The position numbers and the translations under genes were made by a program. The notes beneath the pieces were generated by a model. That model made no database searches, was not told the DNA's origin, and worked only from the letters and a program-made list of their open reading frames with translations. This document shows positions 2,693-16,224 of a DNA stretch of 24,673 bases, in pieces. The number at the start of each line of letters is the position of its first letter. Position 1 is the stretch's first letter. The DNA comes from a virus, in the IMG/VR virus record IMGVR_UViG_3300012920_000251, positions 1 to 24,673 of that record. The stretch is one strand, 5' to 3'.

Positions 2693-3442
2693 ATGGGTAT
2701 AGACACCGCAGCTAAAAAGATTCAGATCAATAAACTTGTCAGAAGTCAAGTTCCATCTTTCGTAGCCGAAGATAATCCTCTGTTTGTTGATTTCCTAAAA
2801 CAATATTATATAAGTGAAGAAAATAAAGGTAAGTCAATTGATATAATCACTAATTTTAATGATTATCAGAAAGCAGATACGTATTCAGAGAATTACAATT
2901 TAATTGGGTTTACAACATGCACAAGTCTTGTAAATTCGTATGATGCTACGATTAATGTAAGTTCTACCGATGGATGGCCATCTGACTATGGATTACTGAA
3001 AATTGATGATGAAATCATTACATATACTGGTATTACATCTACATCATTTACTGGATGTGTGAGAGGGTTCTGTGGTGTTGATAATTTAAAATCACCTTCC
3101 AATCCTGAGTCATTAGTATTCTCTACATCTAGTGCGAGTAAACATGAAAATAATTCTAAAGTAGTTAATTTAAGTAATCTATTCCTACAAGAGTTTTGGT
3201 ATAAAACTAAACAATTGTTTATGCCTGGTTTTGAGGATAGAAATCTACATTCAAAAGTAGACAAAGCTAATTTTCTACGTCAAGCAAAAGATTTTTATGC
3301 ATCAAAAGGAACTGATCAAGCTATAAAGATATTGTTTGGTGTTCTATTTGATAGTCGTGCTGAAGTTATAAAACCAGTAGAATATCTATTTGCACCATCA
3401 GATGCTGACTATGTGAAGACTAATGATTTGATTGTAGAGAGA
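2693..3442 (+). other. N-terminal conserved wedge-type domain of the giant protein
   Basis: Residues about 1-250 read as a compact, mostly helical domain: IQINKLVRSQVPSFV, an aromatic helix ending in FLKQYYISEENKG, an inserted IDDEII module (104-109) and then FLRQAKDFYASKGTDQAIKI (from 194). This last block recurs at the start of gp7-position structural proteins of marine T4-like phages (from memory). It is the part most likely to dock onto the wedge core, while the rest of the chain is accessory. Confidence 0.6.
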
Positions 3443-6400
3443 CTTAGTGGAAATGCTGATAACGTAGTTGGCCAAACACTATTTCAAACTGACAACGCAG
3501 CTACAAGTGGATCTATCTTCAATGTTCAATACTTTCCAAGAGAAGGTAGAGACTACTACATTATTAGTTTAAGTAAAGGATCAATAGTTGGAACTTTTGA
3601 ACCAACAGGATCATCTGCATTGGTTAATCCTGTATCAATAGGAACAACAGTTATTACAGTCGATTCTACACTTGGATTTCCTGAAAATGGAGAATTGTAT
3701 GTTGGTGCTGGTTTAACTGTTGGTATCGCAACATATACAAGTAAAACATCCACACAATTCTATGGTGTATCTGGTATTTCCTCTAGTTACACTGATAGTG
3801 ACTTTGTACGATCATCTAAAACTGTTTTTGCATACGAAAATGGAGATGTAGATAAACCAGTCTTCTTTAGATTAACAAACGTAGCTAATGGTGTAGATTT
3901 AAGTGATGTTGGATTTCTAAAAGCTAATGATGTTATTGTACCTAGACAGTTAGGAAAAGTATCAGATCAAAACAATTATCATTTGAATAGTTGGGTAGAT
4001 AATGTAAAAAATAAAACTGACGTTGCTAGAGAAATTGCAACAAACACATCTAAAGTAAATTCAAATAGTAATGTTGTTACAACTGCAGCTCCACATTTTT
4101 TAAGTGTCGATGATACAGTGGTTTTACTTGATGTGACTGGAGATGATCAGACTCCCGATAATATTACAGGAACTGTTCTTGATGTTTATAATGATTTGGA
4201 GTTTAGAATAGCTATAACTTCAGGTCAATTTGATACTTCTAAACTTTACAAAGTGCAAAGACAGTTAAATTTTGCAAAGAGTACAAATAGTCAATTAGGA
4301 GTAGAGAATTTTGTTGCAGATGTACAGAACACATATATTTCTAGAGACAATACTGAAGTTTATGTTACTGCTGGTTCTTTACCAAGTTATGAAATAGTTG
4401 CAACTAATAGAAGTAAAACATTTACATCTGCAGACCCAGCATTTAATTCAAATGTAGATGATATAACTGATAGAATTACAATAGTAAATCATAACTTTAT
4501 TAATGGTGAATTAGTTAGATACTCTCCCACCACATCTACAGTCGTTGGTTTAGATACAGGTTCAGTATATGCAGTGAGAAAAGTTAATAATGATATTATT
4601 CAATTATCAAGAAGTATTCCAGATGTAGCTGCTGGAAAAGTAATTCCTATCTCTGGTATTGGTAGTACAACTTCACATACATTAATTCCAAGTGATTTAT
4701 CTGGCAAAAATGTAAAACACCAAAATTTCTTAAGAAGGTTTCCTGTATCGCCACAACCAAGTGAGGATGATGCACCATTACAGAATGAACCAGTTGGAAT
4801 GTTCTTAAATGGTGTTGAGATATTATCCAATCAATCTGGTGACAGTATTCATTTTGGTAGAATAGATCGTATTGACGTAGAGAGTGGCGGAAGTAATTAT
4901 GATCTGGTTACTCCTCCTAATATACACATATCAGATAATGTAGGAACAGGTGCTACTGCATATGCCGTTATTGAAGGTAATTTTAAAGGTATAGATGTCA
5001 TATCTGGTGGTTATGATTTAAAGAGTGTACCAAATGTAGTAATAACAGGTGGTAATGGTCAAGGCGCAACTGCAAGAGCCAGATTGAAAGCCACCAGAAA
5101 CTCTAGACTATTTGATGCTAAGAATGATGTTAATATTGGTAATGATAGAATTACTTTTTCTTCTGATCATTTATTCTTTGATGGTGAGTCAGTTGTATAT
5201 GAAAAATCAGAATTAGATCCTGTTGTAGGTGGTCTTGTTGACAAATCAATCTATTTTGTTAATAAAGTTAGTGACACTCAAATTAGTCTCACAAACACCT
5301 TTGAAGACGCTGTGGCGGGTACAAACATTGTTAATATTACTGGTATATCCAAAGGTAGCCATAAATTTACATCTACTGTTTTTAGAAATGTTTTAGAAAG
5401 AATTATAGTTGATAATCCAGGCTCTGGTTATTCCAATCGAAAAATTCTAGTTAATTCTAATGCATATCCATCGGCTTCATATTTTGCAAGAGATACAGTC
5501 AAAACAGGAATAAACACAGCTAACAATTATATTTACTTTAGAAATCATGGATTTAAATCAGGGGAAACTGTAGAGTACAATAATACAGGCACACCTATAA
5601 GTGGTTTAGATACAACTCAAAATTATCAAGTAATTGTTTTAGATGAAAATAAATTCCGTGTATGTAGTGCTGGTATTGGAACTACAACCACTACAGTAAA
5701 TTATTTTAAAGGTAGGTATGTAGATTTAAACTCAGTTGGAGTAGGAACTCATACTTTTAAATATCCAGATATATCCGTAAGTTTACAAACAACATCAGGA
5801 TTAGCTGTTACTGCTACATCTGCACCTATAATTAGACCTCGTTGTCATGGATCTATTACTGATGTATATCTAACTAATGATGGGGTTGGTTATGGATCAA
5901 GTGATACTCTTAATGCACATAGAAGACCTTTGGTTACTGTTTCTAACGGTCAAGATGCATTAATTACAGTAGGTGTATCTAATGGTGAGATAACTGGTGC
6001 GTTCGTTAAGATAAAAGGTAAAGGATATGTTTCACCTCCAGAATTAATAGTAGAAGGCACAGGTAAATATGCAAATCTTTTATCAAACGTTGCAAGTGAT
6101 GGCTCACTATCAAGTGTAAATATCATCGATGGTGGTAAAGGTTACACCGAAGAACCTTTGACCACTGTGAGAGTCAAACAACAGGGTTCTGGCGCTGTTT
6201 TCAGAGCAGACTTAACACAATGGAAAACAACCACATTAAAGAGATATCAAAAACATATTAATCAGGATGATGATGGTATTATTGTGCCAAGTCAAAACCC
6301 TGAATATGAAGCTAAATTTGCATCAACATATCTTCCAAGAAAGTTAAGATTAAAATTAGATGATAATTTATTTGTAGATATTAATGGTCAATTAAAAGAA

Positions 6401-9400
6401 AAATCTAATCTAGTTCATTCACCAATAGTTGGATGGGCTTATGATGGCGCTCCAATCTATGGCCCATATGGACATGATACACCAACTGGAGGTGTAATAC
6501 GTAGATTAGTATCAAGTTACACTGTTAATCTAAAACCAAATAGATCATCTGTATCCGATTTTTCTTTAGGTTCTTTTGTAGAAGATTATGATTATACAGC
6601 TGACGGTGATCTTGATAAGTATAACGGCAGATATTGTAAAACTCCAGAGTATCCAAATGGGGTTTATGCTTACTTCTGTACTATTCAAGATGCTGATGGA
6701 TCTGTATCACCTTTTATAGGATCTAGAGAGCCATCTTTCCCATATGTATTAAACGGTTTTAAATTTAAAAAAGTAGAGATGAATGGACAACCATTAACTC
6801 TACAAGATATGCCAATTCTTAATAGTGGTAATATTTTAAGAAATACTTTACCGTATAGACTTGGATTTATAGGATCTGATTATGATTACCTCGTTTCTAA
6901 GAATATAGATGATACAGAACTCCTTATAAAAACAATATCTACAAGTGGTATAGGATCTGTTACAGTATTATCGCCAGGTATTGATTACAAAGTAAAAGAT
7001 AGAATATCATTTAATAATAGTGAAAGTGGTGGTAGAGGTGCAAGTGCAAAAGTCAGAACACTTGTAGGAAAAGGTATCACCGAAGTTACCTATAATCAAA
7101 CTACTGTTGATAATATTGCATTTGATTTCAAAAATGAATTGGGTGTAGGTATTGCATCTACATGCCATGGATTGCAGAATAATGATTTAGTTAATATCTC
7201 TGGTATTGGAACTGGTGAAATGAGATTTCTAGAAGGCCCCAGAACTATTGGTGTTGCTTCTATAACTTCTTTCTTATCAGTGGGAATTAGTAGTATACAA
7301 CTTACAGGTGAGACTACTTTCATTAAGCTAACTGATGTTGTAGGAGGGAAGAGTAAAGAAGATGATATTGCAGTTGGCGACTGGTTAGTTATAGGTAATA
7401 ATGAAGAAAAAGTTAAAGTTTTAGAAATAGACACTACATTAAACAGATATAGAGTTTTAAGACAAAGTGGTATTACAACATTTCATGAAGCTGGTCAAAG
7501 ATTATCTATTGATCAAAGAAGATTTACATTCTCGGTTGGTATTAACACAAATCTAAACATCATAAGAAATAAATTACTCGCTTTCAATCCACAGAATAGT
7601 ATTGGTATTGGGACTGGATTAGTTACAGTTGCAAATCCTGTTGGCACAGGGAATACACAGGTAGTAAGAGTTAAGGCTAGAGATAATACAATTCTTGCAG
7701 ATCATGATACCCCTCCACATGCAGGGCAGCCAGGTAGTAATGGTGACAATGCGATTTCGATTCCTAATCATGGATTATTAACAGGACAGAGATTAAGATA
7801 TGAAAGTGGTAAAGGAACTCCATTAGTCGTTTCTAATGCTGTTGGATTGGGTAACTCTTTTGCACTTACTGATGGACAGTTTGTTTTTGCAGTTAAGAAG
7901 AGTAATGATTTAATAGGTTTATCAACAACAAGAGCTGGTATTGGTAGCACATCCACATCACTTTATATTGTAACTATTGTTAATGGTAATAAAGAAGATC
8001 ACACACTTGAGACAACTAATGAAGAACATATTGGATCTCTTGATAGATATGATGTTATAGTTCATACATCATCAGGTCATGAATTAAAAACTAAAGATGA
8101 AATTACAGTTGATATTGCACCTAATACATTAGTTAACAAATCAATAGAATATGATACGATTGCAAGAAAAACAATTGTAGATCCAAAGTATGTTAACAGT
8201 AGTTCTGTGTCAACAACTGACTCTACAATAACATTAGTTAATCATGGATATAAAGATGGTGATAAAATACTTTATTCTGCAACCACCCCAATAACTCCAC
8301 TTTCAGATAGGGGAGAATATTATGTAAAGAGTGTTTCTAGAAATACATTTAGGTTATTTGATAACAGAAAGGATTCCGTAAGTATTCCAAATGCATTTAT
8401 TAATATAACTAACGTTGGATCTGGAGTACATAGATTTGCAAGAATTAATCCACCTATTCAAGCTTTACGAGGTGAAACAATTGGTTTTGCTGTGTCTGAT
8501 ACATCTCTTGTTGATTTTACACTTGAGTTTTATAAAGACGAAAACTTCATTAGTAAATTTGATGGTGTTGGTATCTCAACTGAAATAGTAAGAACAGGTG
8601 TATCTGGAGCTAGTGGAGCTACTGTTAAAGTAAAATTAACTGATAATATTCAATTACCAATATGGTACAAACTTGTTCCTTCAACTCTTGATACAATAGA
8701 TGTAACAAAGAGAGATTCTGAACCAGATAATCAAGTTATAAATGGATCTAAGATAACAATAGACCCAAGTATATACGCTGGTAATTTTGGAATTACAACC
8801 ACAGGAATAACATCATTTACATATCAGGTAGGAAATAAACCAGAAGTAAATTCATATAAAACATCTGGAATTACAACATTCAGATATCTTACATCATCTC
8901 CTAATGCTACTGGTGGTATTAATGAGATTTCAATTGATTTTGAAGGAGTTGATTATATTAAAAATCCTGGCATCAATACTATAAGAACTGTTTCTGGAAG
9001 AGATGCTGATATACGTATGTTCGATGAATATATTGGGCGTGCTGGATATAAAGAAATAGTCAAGATAGGATATGATTATCCCACTGACAAATCATTAAGT
9101 CCTAGAGCCGATACTCCTGTTGTTGTAACAGTTCAAAATAATTTCGCAATTGGAAGTATTGGTGTTGAAACTGCTGGAAAAAATTATAGTACTGCACCAG
9201 ATATATTCTTCCCAGTTAGACCTAACGCACAAACCGAAGCCACTCTTGATGGAACTGGTATTGGATCAGTAAGGATATTAAATGATAGTTTAACAGGATT
9301 TGATTTAGTTCCCAATCCACCAAGAATTTATGCAATCAATAATAGTAATGGTGTCGGTGTGGTTACTGCAACATCTAATGGAGTAACACAATTCATAACA

Positions 9401-12400
9401 CTTAAGAGTCCTCTTGGTGGTTGGAGACCAGAAGCTCATAGATTGGGAACCAATTTCCCATTTGTAGTTGGTGATCAAATATTTGTTGAAAATGTGAACA
9501 TCAAAGGTCATCCAGTGATAGTTGATGGTGAAGAAACATTCCCAGAACCAGTTCCTAGCACTGATCCACGTACATATCCAGATAATCAAATAGCTGGATA
9601 TAATTCCAATATGTATGACTATAGATATTTCACGATAACTGCAAGAAATATTGCAGATTCTAAAATTGAATTTAGTCTTACTGGTATTGGTAGTACAGGT
9701 GGTTTCTTTGATCCTGTAAACAGTGCTGGTAGAATTATTAAGAAAGAGGATTTACCTACATTCAACGTAAAGTTTGAACATAGAAACTTTATTAATGGCG
9801 AATCGGTGGTATTTGGTGATGGTTCTGCAGAGGGTAATATAGTAAAAAATGAAGGTTGGGATCCAGCTACAAATTCGTTTAGATTGGAAAATTTAACTAG
9901 AACTCCGTATATTGGTGATACCATCATAGGAAAAATATCTAGGGCTAATGGAAAAGTAGTTAAATCCAACTTCTATGAAAAATATTTCACATTAGGATTT
10001 AATGCTGAGAGAGAAAAAGGATGGCAGAAAAATACTGGTAAACCAAGTAATGACTTCCAAAAACTACAGGATAGTGATTACTATCAAAACTTCTCATATT
10101 CTATTCAAAGTGAAGTTCAAGAAAAAAACTTTACTGATGCCGTAGACAGTATTGTTCATCCATCTGGATATAAAAACTTTTCTGATTTAGTTATAAAATC
10201 TACACCAACATCTGGAGTTGGTAGAAGCACAAGTCTAGTTGCTAGATCACCTCAACAATCCACTGATTTAAAAGTTGATATTGATAATGTACAATCTTTC
10301 TTTGTTAAAAATGATTTTGATTTTGCAACAGAGACGACTATATCAAATGGTTTATCTAAATCTATAAATTTCCAAAATAAAAAACTTAGAAACCTATTAA
10401 GTATTGCAACTGCAAAAGTAGAATTAATAGATGATATTAGTAATCAATTCACAGGTATTACGACTGATCCTAGTGGTGGTCAAATTGTTGGTTTAAGTTC
10501 ATTTAGACTTACATCACAAAGTGGCGTTGTGCCTTTGTTCAGTAAAATATTTAACCCCAACGATCCTCTAAGTAGACATATAACTGTTGGTTCTGATACC
10601 ATTACAATTTTCAATCATGGATTCCAAACTGGTGAAAGAATTAAGTATGATGATCATGGACAAAGTGGTGATCAAAGAATTGGTATTGTAGCTACTAATA
10701 ATGTCATAGGTGGAGTAACAACTAACTTCATGCCTCCTGAAGTATTTGTATTCTCTAGGTTAGACAATAATAGATTTAAAATTGCAGGGTTATCTACATC
10801 CACTGCCCCTCTTTCTATAAGGAGCCTTGGAACAGGAACAGAACATTCATTTGATACTATCAAACCTGAAAACAAAACTTTAATTCAAATTGATGGAATG
10901 ATTCAATCTCCATTAACTAATAGAAGTGTTTCTTTAGATATAGTTGATGCAGTGGGTGTTGGATCAACAACTCTTAAATTAGCTGGTATTACCACTGTAA
11001 AATTAAATGATATCATTCAAATTGATGATGAGTTCTTTAGAGTTAAGACAGTTGGTTTTGGATCTACAAATGTAGTTTCAGTTGATCGTGGATTCCTTGG
11101 TAGTAAGGTAGCTGCTCACGCAGCTAATGCTACACCTCAAATGAAAGGTGGTAATTTTAGAATTGATAAAGATGTTGTTTTCTTTGCAACACCACCATTT
11201 GGCCCTGCAGGGCCTACTGGGGTCAGCACACAATCAACATTTAGTGGTAGAGTCTTTAATAGAAAAGATCTGACAAGAAACTTTGTATTTGATGATATAT
11301 CTCATAAATTTACAGGATCTGTAGCAACAGGAAAAACATTTACTTTAACACAAGATGGATCAGATGTAACAGGTATAGTAACTACAACTAGTGGAACTGG
11401 TGGTGATGATGAAGTTATTAATTATGGTGTCGTTTTAATAAACGGTATCTTCCAAAGACCAACAATTGATTATGATATAGTTGCAAGATCAACCGCACCT
11501 AATATTGGTGTTGGTGCATCTATCATATTCACTGGTGACAATTTATTTGATTTACCAAGAGGTGGTAAAGTTGACGAAGTAGATCCTGTGACTTTAGGAC
11601 AGAACTATCAACCACGAGTACGTGCAGCTGCATCTGCAGTTATTAACGCAGCTGGATCTATTCAAAGTGTAAGTATGTTAGGTGCTGGTTCAGGATATTT
11701 TTCAGGATCATTCAATATAGAAGTACAAAATCCATTAGGTGTAGGTTCTACTGCTGTACTAACTGCAACTGTAGGAACTGGTAATAGTGCAGGGATGATC
11801 ACTGGTATTACCACTGTGAGTGGTGGTACTGGATACTCCGCACAATTCCCTCCAACAATAAAAGTAGGTATTGCGACTGGATATACAAACTTACCTGTTA
11901 CTGGTGGATCTGGAAATGGTCTTAAAGTTGATGCATTGATTGGATCAGGTGGAACTGTTATTGGATTTGATATTAAGGAAAGAGGTTTTGGATATAAGAA
12001 TGGTGAAGTGTTAACAGTTCAAGGAATACCTTTCAGAGTAGGTGTTTCAACATCACCGTTCACGTTGACAGTTAAAACAACCATTGATGATAAGTTTGCA
12101 GGGTTCAGTTTTGGTCAACTAGTTCCTCTTGATGATTTCTCCACAGAATTTAATGGTGCTAAGAAGTCGTTTGTGTTAACTAAAACAGTATTGACAAAAG
12201 ATGTTGTAAGTATTATTTCTTTAGATACTTCTATTGATGTTACAAATAACCTTTTAATATTCTTAAATGATGTATTACAACAACCTGGCAGAAACTATAG
12301 TTTAGAAGGTGGTAGTATACTTAATTTTGTTGAACCTCCAAAGGGTGGAAGTAAATTACAAGTGTTATTCTTCAGAGGTGGTAATCAAGACATCGAAGCT

Positions 12401-14596
12401 TTAAATCCAGTTAAGACTGTTAAAGTTGGTGACAAACTTCAATTACTCAAAGATTTGGATGTTCCAAATCAAAGTGATCGTGTTGTATCTGAAATAACTG
12501 AGGTTAGTGAAGTAGATACTCCTTCATATGGTGGCGGTGGAATTAGTACAAATCCTAGTTTGGTTAGAGTTGTTTCATGGAAGAAACAAGAAAATGATCT
12601 TGTTGTTGATGGATTATCCATTGCAAAGGATAGACCACTTCAAGTTGGTAACTTCTTCCCTAGTGCAAGATTAATAAGAAATGTAGGAACAAGCTCTGTA
12701 ACAACATACGTTGATAATGCGTTCCCATTCTTCAGTGCTTATGATAATAGAACAGATATTGATGGCATTCCTGGCTTGATAGAAATTATTAATACTCAAG
12801 AAATTAATGTTGCAACTGGTTTAGCTACAGTTTCTGCTGGAGGTACAGTCAGTTCTATAACTGTCACAGATGGTGGATCTGGATATGAAAATATTCCTAC
12901 AGTATCAGTTGCTAACTTTAATAATATCTCAGGTGTAAATATTCCACTAACAGAAGAAGTTGGTAGATCTTGGAATAAGATAACTGCACCAGCAGACATT
13001 AGTTATAATGATATTGATTACACTCCTGAAGGTGTGTTTGTGGCCGTTGGAAGTACATCTGGTATTCATACATCTACGGACGGAAATAATTGGACTGTTG
13101 CAACCACAGGAAATTTTGGAACATTCAAAGGTGTGGTAGGACTATCATCTGAAGTTGTGGCTGTAGGTGGTGCTGGAACCATCGCAAGAAGTACAAATGC
13201 AGCTTCTACTTTTGGTACAACAACCATCTATCAGAGAAAACAGGTTGGTTTCATTCCAAGTTATACACCTAGAAACATACCACAAAGTTTAAATGCAGCT
13301 GCTGTCGGATCATACCTATTCCCTAATGCACTCACTGGTATCAGTACAGATGTACCATATGAAAGAGTTGTTGTGGTTGGTGCTGCTGGAACCATTCTTT
13401 ATACAGAACCAGGCTTAGCGGGACTAACTTCATCATTCGTTATATCAAATAAATTTGCAACCCAAGACTTTCACGGAGTTGCATATCATGATGGCACGTT
13501 TGTTGCTGTTGGTAATCAGGGGTCAATATACAGATCAACAGATGGTGAAACATGGTCTGGTGTAACCACTACATCAATTACTACCAACTTAAAAGGTATT
13601 GCTTATGGTTCTGATAAATGGATTGCTGTTGGAGCTGCAGGGACAATCATATCTTCTGCAGATGATGGTCTAAATTGGTCAGTCGTGGGTGCTGGTGGCA
13701 CATTCCAATTAAATAGTGTCCACTATCAAAATAATGTTTGGTTGGCTGTAGGTGGTGCTGGAATGGCCATGAATTCAATTGATGGTTCAACTTGGTATAA
13801 AAAACATGTAGTGGCTGCAGGAACTCCGTTAGGAAGTCAATTAAATGCAGTAACTTATGGTGACAATAAGATGGTTGCAGTTGGAATACAGTCAGGTCTT
13901 GTTTGGAGTGGATATGAAAAAGTTGGTGCAGCTGCAACTGCAACAGTTGGTGCTGGTGGTACAATCAGTGCGATAACTGTAACTGATGGTGGATTTGGAT
14001 ATACACCAGGCACTAATCCAACAGTATTACTAAGTCAAGAAGCAGTAACTCGTGAAAGATGCAATACAGTTAATGTGACTGGTGATTATGGAGTTGTGGT
14101 TGGTGTTGCTGTAAGTTCTAGTGGTGTTAATAGTCGTGCAACTCTTAACCTATCATTAGATGCAGATGCTTTCCTAAATCAGGCTGGATTTGGAAACATA
14201 TCTAAGACAGGATTAGCTGCTGGTGATTATTTTGTTCTTAGGAACACCGTATTTGGTGCTGGTGTAACCTCAATTGATAAAGATGGTAACAATGTCGGTG
14301 TGGGAACTAGCTTTGCTGATAACATATATAAGGTTGAGGAAATTGTAACTTCCAATACTGGTATTGTTACTGTATTTTGCAATATAAACTCAACAACTGG
14401 TATTACACCGATTACTGGGCCAAAACTTGGTGATTATAGTTTCGGTAAATTAACCAACTTGACAAGATCTACAACAGATCCAAAAGTATTCAATATTAAT
14501 ACCACTAATGGTTATACTGGAATAACGACTGCTCCTGAAGTCAGACGTATCAATCCTTTAGCTACAACCTATAGTGACTTTGATAAAACAACATAA
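2693..14596 (+). CDS. Giant baseplate/virion structural protein in the gp7 position, modular, 3967 residues
   Basis: One unbroken frame of 3967 codons lies between gp6 and gp8, where T4 has gp7 (1032 residues), the wedge initiator. The N terminus (about 1-250) is a conserved wedge-type domain: KLVRSQVPSFVAEDNPLFVDFL at about 13-34, and FLRQAKDFYASKGTDQAIK from residue 194, followed by a VIKPVEYLF segment. After it come degenerate beta-rich modules: NHG repeats (N at residues 599, 825, 951, 1692, 1850, 2641), GG-x-GY repeats (about 731-3771), two IDDE modules (104 and 2777), a YHYH-type domain (about 1240-1350) and a seven-copy propeller (about 3427-3742). No signal peptide or membrane segment is evident. 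Arginine codons are mostly AGA. The stop lies in a possible late promoter for gp8. That it is the gp7 counterpart is inferred from position and the N-terminal domain; it could instead be a wedge-associated protein that replaces or extends gp7. Confidence 0.8.
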   Translation: MGIDTAAKKIQINKLVRSQVPSFVAEDNPLFVDFLKQYYISEENKGKSIDIITNFNDYQKADTYSENYNLIGFTTCTSLVNSYDATINVSSTDGWPSDYGLLKIDDEIITYTGITSTSFTGCVRGFCGVDNLKSPSNPESLVFSTSSASKHENNSKVVNLSNLFLQEFWYKTKQLFMPGFEDRNLHSKVDKANFLRQAKDFYASKGTDQAIKILFGVLFDSRAEVIKPVEYLFAPSDADYVKTNDLIVERLSGNADNVVGQTLFQTDNAATSGSIFNVQYFPREGRDYYIISLSKGSIVGTFEPTGSSALVNPVSIGTTVITVDSTLGFPENGELYVGAGLTVGIATYTSKTSTQFYGVSGISSSYTDSDFVRSSKTVFAYENGDVDKPVFFRLTNVANGVDLSDVGFLKANDVIVPRQLGKVSDQNNYHLNSWVDNVKNKTDVAREIATNTSKVNSNSNVVTTAAPHFLSVDDTVVLLDVTGDDQTPDNITGTVLDVYNDLEFRIAITSGQFDTSKLYKVQRQLNFAKSTNSQLGVENFVADVQNTYISRDNTEVYVTAGSLPSYEIVATNRSKTFTSADPAFNSNVDDITDRITIVNHNFINGELVRYSPTTSTVVGLDTGSVYAVRKVNNDIIQLSRSIPDVAAGKVIPISGIGSTTSHTLIPSDLSGKNVKHQNFLRRFPVSPQPSEDDAPLQNEPVGMFLNGVEILSNQSGDSIHFGRIDRIDVESGGSNYDLVTPPNIHISDNVGTGATAYAVIEGNFKGIDVISGGYDLKSVPNVVITGGNGQGATARARLKATRNSRLFDAKNDVNIGNDRITFSSDHLFFDGESVVYEKSELDPVVGGLVDKSIYFVNKVSDTQISLTNTFEDAVAGTNIVNITGISKGSHKFTSTVFRNVLERIIVDNPGSGYSNRKILVNSNAYPSASYFARDTVKTGINTANNYIYFRNHGFKSGETVEYNNTGTPISGLDTTQNYQVIVLDENKFRVCSAGIGTTTTTVNYFKGRYVDLNSVGVGTHTFKYPDISVSLQTTSGLAVTATSAPIIRPRCHGSITDVYLTNDGVGYGSSDTLNAHRRPLVTVSNGQDALITVGVSNGEITGAFVKIKGKGYVSPPELIVEGTGKYANLLSNVASDGSLSSVNIIDGGKGYTEEPLTTVRVKQQGSGAVFRADLTQWKTTTLKRYQKHINQDDDGIIVPSQNPEYEAKFASTYLPRKLRLKLDDNLFVDINGQLKEKSNLVHSPIVGWAYDGAPIYGPYGHDTPTGGVIRRLVSSYTVNLKPNRSSVSDFSLGSFVEDYDYTADGDLDKYNGRYCKTPEYPNGVYAYFCTIQDADGSVSPFIGSREPSFPYVLNGFKFKKVEMNGQPLTLQDMPILNSGNILRNTLPYRLGFIGSDYDYLVSKNIDDTELLIKTISTSGIGSVTVLSPGIDYKVKDRISFNNSESGGRGASAKVRTLVGKGITEVTYNQTTVDNIAFDFKNELGVGIASTCHGLQNNDLVNISGIGTGEMRFLEGPRTIGVASITSFLSVGISSIQLTGETTFIKLTDVVGGKSKEDDIAVGDWLVIGNNEEKVKVLEIDTTLNRYRVLRQSGITTFHEAGQRLSIDQRRFTFSVGINTNLNIIRNKLLAFNPQNSIGIGTGLVTVANPVGTGNTQVVRVKARDNTILADHDTPPHAGQPGSNGDNAISIPNHGLLTGQRLRYESGKGTPLVVSNAVGLGNSFALTDGQFVFAVKKSNDLIGLSTTRAGIGSTSTSLYIVTIVNGNKEDHTLETTNEEHIGSLDRYDVIVHTSSGHELKTKDEITVDIAPNTLVNKSIEYDTIARKTIVDPKYVNSSSVSTTDSTITLVNHGYKDGDKILYSATTPITPLSDRGEYYVKSVSRNTFRLFDNRKDSVSIPNAFINITNVGSGVHRFARINPPIQALRGETIGFAVSDTSLVDFTLEFYKDENFISKFDGVGISTEIVRTGVSGASGATVKVKLTDNIQLPIWYKLVPSTLDTIDVTKRDSEPDNQVINGSKITIDPSIYAGNFGITTTGITSFTYQVGNKPEVNSYKTSGITTFRYLTSSPNATGGINEISIDFEGVDYIKNPGINTIRTVSGRDADIRMFDEYIGRAGYKEIVKIGYDYPTDKSLSPRADTPVVVTVQNNFAIGSIGVETAGKNYSTAPDIFFPVRPNAQTEATLDGTGIGSVRILNDSLTGFDLVPNPPRIYAINNSNGVGVVTATSNGVTQFITLKSPLGGWRPEAHRLGTNFPFVVGDQIFVENVNIKGHPVIVDGEETFPEPVPSTDPRTYPDNQIAGYNSNMYDYRYFTITARNIADSKIEFSLTGIGSTGGFFDPVNSAGRIIKKEDLPTFNVKFEHRNFINGESVVFGDGSAEGNIVKNEGWDPATNSFRLENLTRTPYIGDTIIGKISRANGKVVKSNFYEKYFTLGFNAEREKGWQKNTGKPSNDFQKLQDSDYYQNFSYSIQSEVQEKNFTDAVDSIVHPSGYKNFSDLVIKSTPTSGVGRSTSLVARSPQQSTDLKVDIDNVQSFFVKNDFDFATETTISNGLSKSINFQNKKLRNLLSIATAKVELIDDISNQFTGITTDPSGGQIVGLSSFRLTSQSGVVPLFSKIFNPNDPLSRHITVGSDTITIFNHGFQTGERIKYDDHGQSGDQRIGIVATNNVIGGVTTNFMPPEVFVFSRLDNNRFKIAGLSTSTAPLSIRSLGTGTEHSFDTIKPENKTLIQIDGMIQSPLTNRSVSLDIVDAVGVGSTTLKLAGITTVKLNDIIQIDDEFFRVKTVGFGSTNVVSVDRGFLGSKVAAHAANATPQMKGGNFRIDKDVVFFATPPFGPAGPTGVSTQSTFSGRVFNRKDLTRNFVFDDISHKFTGSVATGKTFTLTQDGSDVTGIVTTTSGTGGDDEVINYGVVLINGIFQRPTIDYDIVARSTAPNIGVGASIIFTGDNLFDLPRGGKVDEVDPVTLGQNYQPRVRAAASAVINAAGSIQSVSMLGAGSGYFSGSFNIEVQNPLGVGSTAVLTATVGTGNSAGMITGITTVSGGTGYSAQFPPTIKVGIATGYTNLPVTGGSGNGLKVDALIGSGGTVIGFDIKERGFGYKNGEVLTVQGIPFRVGVSTSPFTLTVKTTIDDKFAGFSFGQLVPLDDFSTEFNGAKKSFVLTKTVLTKDVVSIISLDTSIDVTNNLLIFLNDVLQQPGRNYSLEGGSILNFVEPPKGGSKLQVLFFRGGNQDIEALNPVKTVKVGDKLQLLKDLDVPNQSDRVVSEITEVSEVDTPSYGGGGISTNPSLVRVVSWKKQENDLVVDGLSIAKDRPLQVGNFFPSARLIRNVGTSSVTTYVDNAFPFFSAYDNRTDIDGIPGLIEIINTQEINVATGLATVSAGGTVSSITVTDGGSGYENIPTVSVANFNNISGVNIPLTEEVGRSWNKITAPADISYNDIDYTPEGVFVAVGSTSGIHTSTDGNNWTVATTGNFGTFKGVVGLSSEVVAVGGAGTIARSTNAASTFGTTTIYQRKQVGFIPSYTPRNIPQSLNAAAVGSYLFPNALTGISTDVPYERVVVVGAAGTILYTEPGLAGLTSSFVISNKFATQDFHGVAYHDGTFVAVGNQGSIYRSTDGETWSGVTTTSITTNLKGIAYGSDKWIAVGAAGTIISSADDGLNWSVVGAGGTFQLNSVHYQNNVWLAVGGAGMAMNSIDGSTWYKKHVVAAGTPLGSQLNAVTYGDNKMVAVGIQSGLVWSGYEKVGAAATATVGAGGTISAITVTDGGFGYTPGTNPTVLLSQEAVTRERCNTVNVTGDYGVVVGVAVSSSGVNSRATLNLSLDADAFLNQAGFGNISKTGLAAGDYFVLRNTVFGAGVTSIDKDGNNVGVGTSFADNIYKVEEIVTSNTGIVTVFCNINSTTGITPITGPKLGDYSFGKLTNLTRSTTDPKVFNINTTNGYTGITTAPEVRRINPLATTYSDFDKTT
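4487..10750 (+). repeat. NHG modules: six or more degenerate copies of a ~70-residue unit in the giant protein
   Basis: A recurring pattern reads I-x-x-x-NHGF-x-x-GE-x-V-x-Y, then a GL or similar turn, then a YxV-x-x-V-x-x-NxIxLS strand, and often closes with GxGxHxF. Clear copies have the Asn (or equivalent) at residues 599 (NHNF), 825 (DHLF), 951 (NHGF), 1692 (NHGL), 1850 (NHGY) and 2641 (NHGF). Two weaker ones are at 467 (PHFL) and 1491 (CHGL). Each likely folds as a small beta domain. At DNA level only short stretches such as aatcatgga are shared, so the copies are old or selected mainly as protein. A related NHG stretch occurs in the DUF4815 protein at residue 2049. Confidence 0.75.
6410..6742 (+). 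other. YHYH-type domain inside the giant protein (degenerate, YAYF at the signature)
   Basis: Residues about 1240-1350 contain GWAYDGAPIYGPYG (from residue 1247), then GSFVEDYDY, LDKYNGRYC, and TPEYPNGVYAYFC (YAYF at 1325-1328). This order matches the YHYH protein family: the DGxPIYGP block, a D-x-x-NGR block, then the YHYH signature after a G. Both signature histidines are replaced (YAYF), so any metal or ligand role of those histidines would be lost. The family occurs in bacterial and eukaryotic secreted proteins, and its biochemical role is not firmly known. It is in frame with the giant ORF, not a separate gene. Confidence 0.75.
12971..13918 (+). other. Seven-copy Asp-box / Ycf48-like beta-propeller near the C terminus of the giant protein
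   Basis: Residues about 3427-3742 hold seven repeats of the pattern (F/W/V)-(V/I/L)-AVG-x-x-G-x-I-x-x-S-x-DG-x-x-W. Their cores begin at residues 3447 (VFVAVGS), 3487 (EVVAVGG), 3557 (ERVVVVGA), 3600 (GTFVAVGN), 3640 (KWIAVGA), 3680 (VWLAVGG) and 3724 (KMVAVG). Spacing is 40-44 residues except for one 70-residue gap after the second copy. Asp-boxes (S-x-D-x-G-x-x-W type) are plain in copies 1, 4, 5 and 6. Seven copies fit a closed seven-bladed propeller, as in Ycf48/HCF136 and some sialidase-like folds. Sialidase catalytic residues are not evident, so a binding or scaffold role is the simpler reading. Confidence 0.85.
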
Positions 14597-14619: not shown

Positions 14620-16224
14620 ATGCCTGCGATTATTTCAGATCAATTTAGAATATTAAATGCTGCGAATTTTGTCGCTGGTGTAGCTGATACATCGCAGTAT
14701 TATTATAGTTTTATAGGTCTACCCAATTCTCAAGATATTGGTGCTGGTTATGGTCAAACTGATTGGAATACAAATACTCCAGCCCCTATGGATGGATTTA
14801 AAGAATATAATGATGCATGGGATACCATGCTTGGTCTTAAACAGTTAACTAGTGATGATGTTCAAAGAATGGTTAAGAAAACCACTTGGACAGCTGGTAC
14901 AGTATATGAAATGTATAAGAATGGATATACCAGAGAGAATCAGAGCCCTAAAACATCTTCTACAAATTTATATGATGCACAATATTACGTTGTAAATAGT
15001 GATCTTAAAGTTTATATTTGTATCAACAACGGTCAAAGTCCAGATAACCCACAAGGTAGACAGTCTCTGGATGAACCAACTTTTGTTGACTTAGAACCAA
15101 GAGCTGCTGGCACATCTGGTGATGGATATATTTGGAAATATCTTTATACTATCAAACCAAACCAAATCATTAAATTTGATTCTATTGATTTTATGCCTGT
15201 TCCTAATGCTTGGGGAACTGGAGAAACAATTGATATTAAAAACAATGCAGTTGATGGTAAAATAGAGACAGCTGTCATATTAAATGCAGGGGATGGATAT
15301 CAACCTATTGGTACTACCTTTAACAACATTCCTATCTTAGGAGACGGAACTGGTGGAAAGGTCTCTGTGACTGTCAATTCTCAAGGTAAAGTTTCTGATG
15401 TGACAGTTACTAATGGTGGAACTGGATACACAAGTGGAACAGTTCAATTTTATCCTGGCGCTCCAGGCACTGAGATTGGTGGGCCAATTGCTGGATTGTC
15501 TGCTGTTGGTGTGGCTGGTACATCAGTTGCAGACATTGAAGTTGTTATTCCACCACCAGGCGGACATGGTTTTGATGTATACAAAGAATTAGGTGCCTTT
15601 AGAGTTCTGATGTATGCACGATTTGAAAATGATTCATCAAACCCAGATTTTATTGTAGGAAATGATTTTGCCAGAGTTGGTCTTGTTAAAAACCCAAAAA
15701 CTCTTTCTGGAGCTCCTCTAACTAAATCAAGTGCCGTGTCGTTAACATCATTAAAACTTAAAACCATTAGTGGTGGTAATATTGCAGATACAACATTTAC
15801 TGTTGATACTCCAGTATCACAAACAATTGGTGTTGGATCGACTGCAGTTGGTTATGTTGCAAATTGGGATTCATCGACTGGTATATTGAAAATGTATAAT
15901 CCTACTGGAATTGGATCTACAACTTATGGATTCCGTACAGTAGATTTTACATCCCAAATTGGGCCTGGCGGTAGTTATACTATTGTTGGTAATGCATCTG
16001 GTAACGCATTAGGAATAGATACTAGTTTCGGAACAAGTTCTAATCCAGGCACTGCTACCACAGTTGGAACGGCTCAAGTTCAATTGGGACAAGACTTTAT
16101 TGAAGGAGTGGCCGACCCAGAAGTTAAAAAATATTCTGGTGAGATATTATACATAGATAACAGGGCTGCAATACAACGTAGTGCTACCCAGAAAGAAGAC
16201 GTAAAAATTGTATTAGAGTTCTAA
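14620..16224 (+). CDS. 8: Baseplate wedge protein gp8, with GG-x-GY insertion
   Basis: This 534-residue protein follows the gp7-position gene as in T4. The N-terminal half has the gp8 pattern: an early MxxGLKQLT segment (70-77), W-x-x-GTVYEMY (90-99), YYVVNSDLKVYIC (122-134), GDGYIWKYLYTI (167-178) and KFDSIDFMPV (185-194). The C-terminal half carries ELGAFRVLMYARF and the FARVGLVKNP strand (about 325-360). In T4, gp8 dimers join gp7 and gp10 at the wedge. T4 gp8 is 334 residues. The extra length here includes two GG-x-GY modules (221-227 and 264-270) like those of the giant protein, and a Gly/Ser/Thr-rich C-terminal part. No Shine-Dalgarno is seen. The ATG at 14620 is the first good start after the possible late promoter. 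Confidence 0.88.
   Translation: MPAIISDQFRILNAANFVAGVADTSQYYYSFIGLPNSQDIGAGYGQTDWNTNTPAPMDGFKEYNDAWDTMLGLKQLTSDDVQRMVKKTTWTAGTVYEMYKNGYTRENQSPKTSSTNLYDAQYYVVNSDLKVYICINNGQSPDNPQGRQSLDEPTFVDLEPRAAGTSGDGYIWKYLYTIKPNQIIKFDSIDFMPVPNAWGTGETIDIKNNAVDGKIETAVILNAGDGYQPIGTTFNNIPILGDGTGGKVSVTVNSQGKVSDVTVTNGGTGYTSGTVQFYPGAPGTEIGGPIAGLSAVGVAGTSVADIEVVIPPPGGHGFDVYKELGAFRVLMYARFENDSSNPDFIVGNDFARVGLVKNPKTLSGAPLTKSSAVSLTSLKLKTISGGNIADTTFTVDTPVSQTIGVGSTAVGYVANWDSSTGILKMYNPTGIGSTTYGFRTVDFTSQIGPGGSYTIVGNASGNALGIDTSFGTSSNPGTATTVGTAQVQLGQDFIEGVADPEVKKYSGEILYIDNRAAIQRSATQKEDVKIVLEF

Follow-up and report, generated by a model that had tools for sequence, protein, structure and literature searches.

The locus and its gp7 protein

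The IMG/VR virus record IMGVR_UViG_3300012920_000251 comprises 24,673 bases, all of which were analysed (hereafter the window); because the record is no longer than this, the window is only a partial genome. Its genes are ordered as in cyanophages, gp25-gp6-gp7-gp8 together with a DUF4815 protein, and among cultured phages the window is closest to Synechococcus phage S-CAM9 (Kanaloavirus), with 67% identity in gp6. Given this closeness of gp6, the host would be Synechococcus or a close relative, and probably marine Synechococcus. Our subject is the gp7-like gene (2693-14596, plus strand), which encodes a giant baseplate wedge protein (a 'baseplate wedge initiator') of 3967 amino acids, and within it a predicted beta-propeller close to the C-terminus. 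The protein matches phrog_2885 over residues 5-2587 (E = 0) and is flanked by gp6 (570-2681) and gp8 (14620-16224), the same neighbours as in S-CAM9, so that profile and synteny together place it among the cyanophage gp7 proteins. An earlier reading of the sequence alone (hereafter the original prediction) had called it a baseplate wedge protein and had considered a phage of cyanobacteria; both points are borne out, the latter by the relationship to S-CAM9.

A predicted seven-bladed propeller

Residues 3427-3742 of gp7 (window 12971-13918) contain exactly seven [VIL][AV]VG motifs, at positions 3450, 3489, 3560, 3604, 3644, 3684 and 3728, whereas 20,000 composition-preserving shuffles yielded at most three and other 316-residue windows sampled upstream in gp7 held no more than one each. 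The seven (V/I)AVG repeats of the original prediction are thus confirmed, and the complete propeller that it proposed, with structure prediction as a check, is recovered by AlphaFold2: from an alignment of 32 related sequences the model reached a mean predicted local distance difference test score (pLDDT) of 84.8 and a predicted template modelling score (pTM) of 0.86. By strand order the model divides into seven blades of the pattern a-b-c(-d), strand b bearing the VAVG motif. On this model the domain is a predicted seven-bladed beta-propeller, whose blades would close into a ring. The usual mode of closure in propellers is also the most likely one here: blade 7 has no W-strand of its own, a spare one is present at the N-terminus, and from the sequence register the N-terminal strand WNKI (12971-12982, plus strand) is proposed as the fourth strand of blade 7.

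The domain is of the Asp-box/BNR-like type, defined by S/T-x-D-x-G-x-x-W/F at the c-d turn of several blades. Four blades carry a clear Asp-box (STDGNNW, STDGETW, SADDGLNW and SIDGSTW), of which SADDGLNW is canonical and the other three have the short form S-x-D-G-x-x-W; a fifth is degenerate (STNAASTF), and inspection of the propeller sequence blade by blade revealed none in blades 3 and 7. The Asp-boxes originally ascribed to the repeats therefore hold for five blades, one of them loosely, and not for the remaining two. Searched with Foldseek against solved structures, the model matched seven-bladed folds including Ycf48 and the designer protein 7big (template modelling scores by target 0.72-0.77). 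Structural matches in BFVD were to gp7 of cyanophage S-SSM7 and to many phage propellers. In a separate comparison, the whole C-terminal region matched S-SSM7 gp7 over 738 columns (E = 1.8e-47).

The propeller is an optional insertion

The propeller lies between two GGxGY beta-repeats, all features here being on the plus strand. The first repeat (12808-12916; SAGGTVSSITVTDGGSGYENIPTVSVAN), which resembles phrog_460, forms the N-terminal border of the insertion, and the second (13924-14002) its C-terminal border; over 79 nucleotides (12808-12886 versus 13924-14002) they constitute a direct repeat with 78% identity. Beyond them, at 14003-14593, profile search places the conserved C-terminal domain of cyanophage gp7, which was detected in 18 of the 18 cultured cyanophage gp7 proteins tested and for which a sequence search of the PDB returned no relative among solved structures. 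Both repeats are kept in gp7 proteins with and without the propeller. In the propeller-less gp7 of SynMITS9220M01, Bellamy, S-SM2 and S-T4 they stand next to each other, with some 20 residues of linker between them; residues 3409-3742 of the window's gp7 have almost no counterpart in these four aligned proteins. Since the repeats are adjacent where the propeller is lacking and the C-terminal domain is conserved, the propeller has been cleanly inserted, as an optional element, into a region of gp7 that is conserved in other respects. The originally proposed interval of 12971-13918 does hold the propeller motifs, but comparison with propeller-less gp7 puts the true unit at about residues 3409-3742 (12917-13918).

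We also considered whether a single exchangeable slot receives different domains, as gp7 of S-B43 carries an insert of about 297 residues. That insert sits one repeat further upstream, and the surroundings in the gp7 of Syn33 are different again, so that the site is not the same and the idea was rejected. The 297-residue domain itself, which has no Pfam match, is 91% identical between the gp7-type proteins of S-B43 (L075:13066-15603) and Syn33 (L085:11844-17009), is carried by 85 cyanophage records, and stands in different surroundings in these two phages, a pattern that suggests a module which has moved recently.

Distribution among phages

Searches with tblastn located the propeller in gp7 of S-CAM9, S-8S53, S-8S55 and S-8S56 (40-41% identity over 97% of the domain) and, more weakly, in that of S-SSM7, Sf-FS3 and DSL-LC03 (26-28% identity); profile iteration added S-SCSM2R and DSL-LC02. 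The first four, all Kanaloavirus, share the gene order of the window, have a gp7 of similar size and carry the propeller at the same place, although their records say only 'baseplate wedge protein' and leave the propeller unnamed. In the other five a homologous propeller directly precedes the same C-terminal domain; S-SSM7 (L022:3062-22156), Sf-FS3 (L023:3026-20555) and DSL-LC02 (L026) differ in that gp7 is split into two genes, and between the halves lies an annotated tail-fibre connector gene in S-SSM7 and an unnamed gene of similar size in Sf-FS3. IMG/VR holds 59 loci with the propeller, about 55 of them of gp7 type.

On a gp6 tree of 19 cyanophages, 8 with the propeller and 11 without, its presence requires two changes, compared with a mean of 6.4 when labels are shuffled: the distribution is patchy but clustered. 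A single clade of carriers was not rejected by the approximately unbiased test (p-AU 0.11 on the gp6 tree and 0.22 on the tree of the C-terminal domain), and the history fits either one old gain with later loss or two gains.

Relationship to Ycf48 and other propellers

Ycf48/HCF136 resembles the gp7 domain in its seven blades and Asp-box-like turns, and the original prediction raised capture from the host, whereby the domain would derive from cyanobacterial Ycf48 and might still contact photosystem proteins. The equal blade number and the cyanobacterial hosts favour such an origin, as does the fact that sequence matches among solved structures with E below about 0.03 are to Ycf48/HCF136 only (best E = 2e-6); being the sole credible matches of this kind, they explain how the idea arose. 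Against it, the Ycf48 model (NF010237) scores 25.9 bits with the isolated domain and 17.5 bits with the whole protein, short of its cut-off of 326. The best curated model is that of the F510_1955 glycosylhydrolase (NF045728), with 47.6 bits and a cut-off of 175, likewise not reached, while DUF6242 (PF19755; gathering score 29) gives 29.9 or 28.7 bits depending on the domain ends. Both NF010237 and NF045728 match a Myxococcales protein, NF045728 also a Treponema protein, and Thermus plasmid proteins match the propeller at about 28% identity, covering as much as 92% of it.

As internal repeats leave the register between propeller families ambiguous, kinship was judged from profile scores. A profile of gp7 propellers, used in one fixed search space in which Ycf48 was represented by parts of 2XBG, ranked the candidates directly. 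The stand-alone propeller of phage DSL-LC01 came first (117.8 bits), followed by three IMG/VR phage proteins (59-62 bits) and by proteins of Myxococcales (58), Acidimicrobiaceae (48) and Treponema (40); Ycf48 came last, at 22.9 bits. A scan of genomes from 84,980 species found no cyanobacterial relative, only three bacterial matches (in Myxococcales, Acidimicrobiaceae and Treponema), which, as the scan uses short patterns, rules out close relatives only. The extracellular baseplate is, moreover, the wrong site for a function in the thylakoid lumen. Unlike Ycf48, a lipoprotein of that compartment, the propeller is part of a 3967-residue phage structural protein and itself carries neither a signal nor a lipobox. 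Fold comparison matched Ycf48 (5ojr) with E = 1e-10, no better than spliceosomal WD40 proteins (9esh, 6e-11), and phage propellers in BFVD with 1e-14 to 1e-18, values from a different library that are only roughly comparable. The Arg patch by which Ycf48 binds D1 consists of six arginines (PMC10403576). Located by spacing in Thermosynechococcus elongatus Ycf48, four of these positions correspond to Q, T, I and T of the gp7 propeller, in a weak low-identity alignment of uncertain register that leaves two of the six uncovered. Scores, ranking, Arg-patch positions and genome scan thus speak together against capture, which is not supported: specific kinship with Ycf48 is lacking, and we regard descent from it as scarcely credible. 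The propeller is of the generic Asp-box/BNR-like type that recurs in many proteins of phages and bacteria.

By sequence or fold the nearest propellers outside gp7 are the DSL-LC01 protein, the BNR protein of S-CBWM1 and the tail fibre of Caulobacter phage Percy, which differ in being separate proteins or a tail fibre rather than part of a wedge protein. The DSL-LC01 propeller (L072:4899-5771), from a phage of Actinomycetia, adjoins collagen-like genes. Its label, 'photosynthesis system II assembly factor', is probably a mis-annotation, as the protein has no match to the Ycf48 model at E 0.01. The open-licence literature searched contained no description of a propeller in cyanophage gp7, the papers found on Ycf48 and cyanophages being concerned with photosynthesis. 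The fold is thus of a known kind, while its nesting in a T4-type wedge initiator appears to be undescribed.

Selection and possible roles

Compared with close relatives (loci L001, L003, L008, L009 and L012), the ratio of nonsynonymous to synonymous substitution rates (dN/dS) is 0.07-0.17 in the propeller and 0.08-0.20 in the rest of gp7. The propeller is under purifying selection like the remainder of the protein; it is therefore constrained, and a fast-changing, hypervariable receptor tip is ruled out at this time scale. Besides strands b and c, conservation is highest in the b-c loops (0.81, versus 0.69-0.70 in the other loops). Three further loci (L010, L014 and L015) have a similar propeller, with a proportion of synonymous differences (pS) of 0.37-0.41, but a far more divergent C-terminal domain (compared with 13925-14593; pS 0.57-0.60, proportion of nonsynonymous differences 0.24-0.25), which suggests recombination just 3' of the propeller.

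The best explanation as a whole, and one in which our trust slightly exceeds our doubt, is that the propeller is an optional lobe that arose by an old insertion in gp7 and binds a conserved ligand. It would have been inserted long ago between the tandem GGxGY beta-repeats and inherited together with gp7 since then, and it would hang from each baseplate wedge as a rigid lobe, a reading suggested by the two ends, which leave and re-enter the gp7 fold at neighbouring points, and by the related phages that do without it. Its most likely function would be that of a non-enzymatic binding disc, the ligand being either a common cyanobacterial envelope component, in which case the disc would assist the tail fibres in adsorption, or a partner in the tail fibre or baseplate. 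Purifying selection fits both. The original prediction's alternative to capture, a glycan or surface-binding module, may hold. We slightly prefer the envelope ligand by analogy with two baseplate-associated propellers: the five-bladed one of the phi11 receptor-binding protein, whose presumed ligand is N-acetylglucosamine of teichoic acid, and the seven-bladed one of phiKZ gp131C, which sits at the baseplate periphery in an unconfirmed role (PMC4901313). These are likened to the gp7 domain by description; phi11 differs in blade number, and neither propeller lies inside a wedge initiator.

Several points weigh against this explanation. The low substitution rate is unlike that of a strain-specific receptor-binding tip, so that an adhesive role would require an invariant ligand; a search for an experimental cyanophage gp7 structure found none, so that exposure on the baseplate is only inferred; and no ligand residues were identifiable in the propeller.

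It is quite possible, if not our first choice, that the propeller is purely structural, a platform for contacts between proteins that would stabilise the wedge or keep a tail fibre or connector in place and would not touch the host. Selection as strong as in the rest of gp7 and the well-conserved b-c loops agree with such docking, as does the position of the propeller-bearing gp7 gene of S-SSM7 next to the annotated 'tail fiber protein connector', a place taken in Sf-FS3 by the unnamed gene. The 11 cyanophages that have the same C-terminal domain without the propeller argue against it, since they exclude a general need in assembly.

An enzymatic role, as a sialidase-like or other glycan hydrolase clearing host surface polysaccharide, has little support, and we consider it very unlikely. 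Its attractions are that a glycosylhydrolase is the best curated model and that propeller endosialidases occur in other phages (PMC4901313). The score is nevertheless far below that model's cut-off, the Pfam scan returned no sialidase family, the 345 residues include only six arginines, and inspection by eye brought out no Arg triad of the sialidase type; the hydrolase was accordingly rejected.

Returning to the binding lobe, we raise as a tentative and rather doubtful extension that a subset of T4-like cyanophages carries a second layer of host recognition on the wedge rather than on the fibres, with one optional lobe per wedge that would bind an unvarying part of the Synechococcus envelope while the fibres attach or afterwards.

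Other features of the window

A YHYH domain (PF14240, E = 1.1e-22) occupies the middle of gp7 (residues 1241-1331; 6413-6685). The gp6 protein ends in a Ser/Thr-rich tail of about 75 residues (2448-2678), beyond the 626 residues that it has in common with gp6 of S-CAM9; gp6 of S-SM2 is similarly long.

Implications

The tempting story of a photosynthesis factor captured into a cyanophage baseplate is corrected by these results and should be dropped. More generally, short Ycf48 matches give little ground for the naming of a phage propeller, as the DSL-LC01 label illustrates. As a clean optional insertion, the propeller could be removed or expressed separately, which makes the role of the oversized baseplate proteins of cyanophages directly testable.

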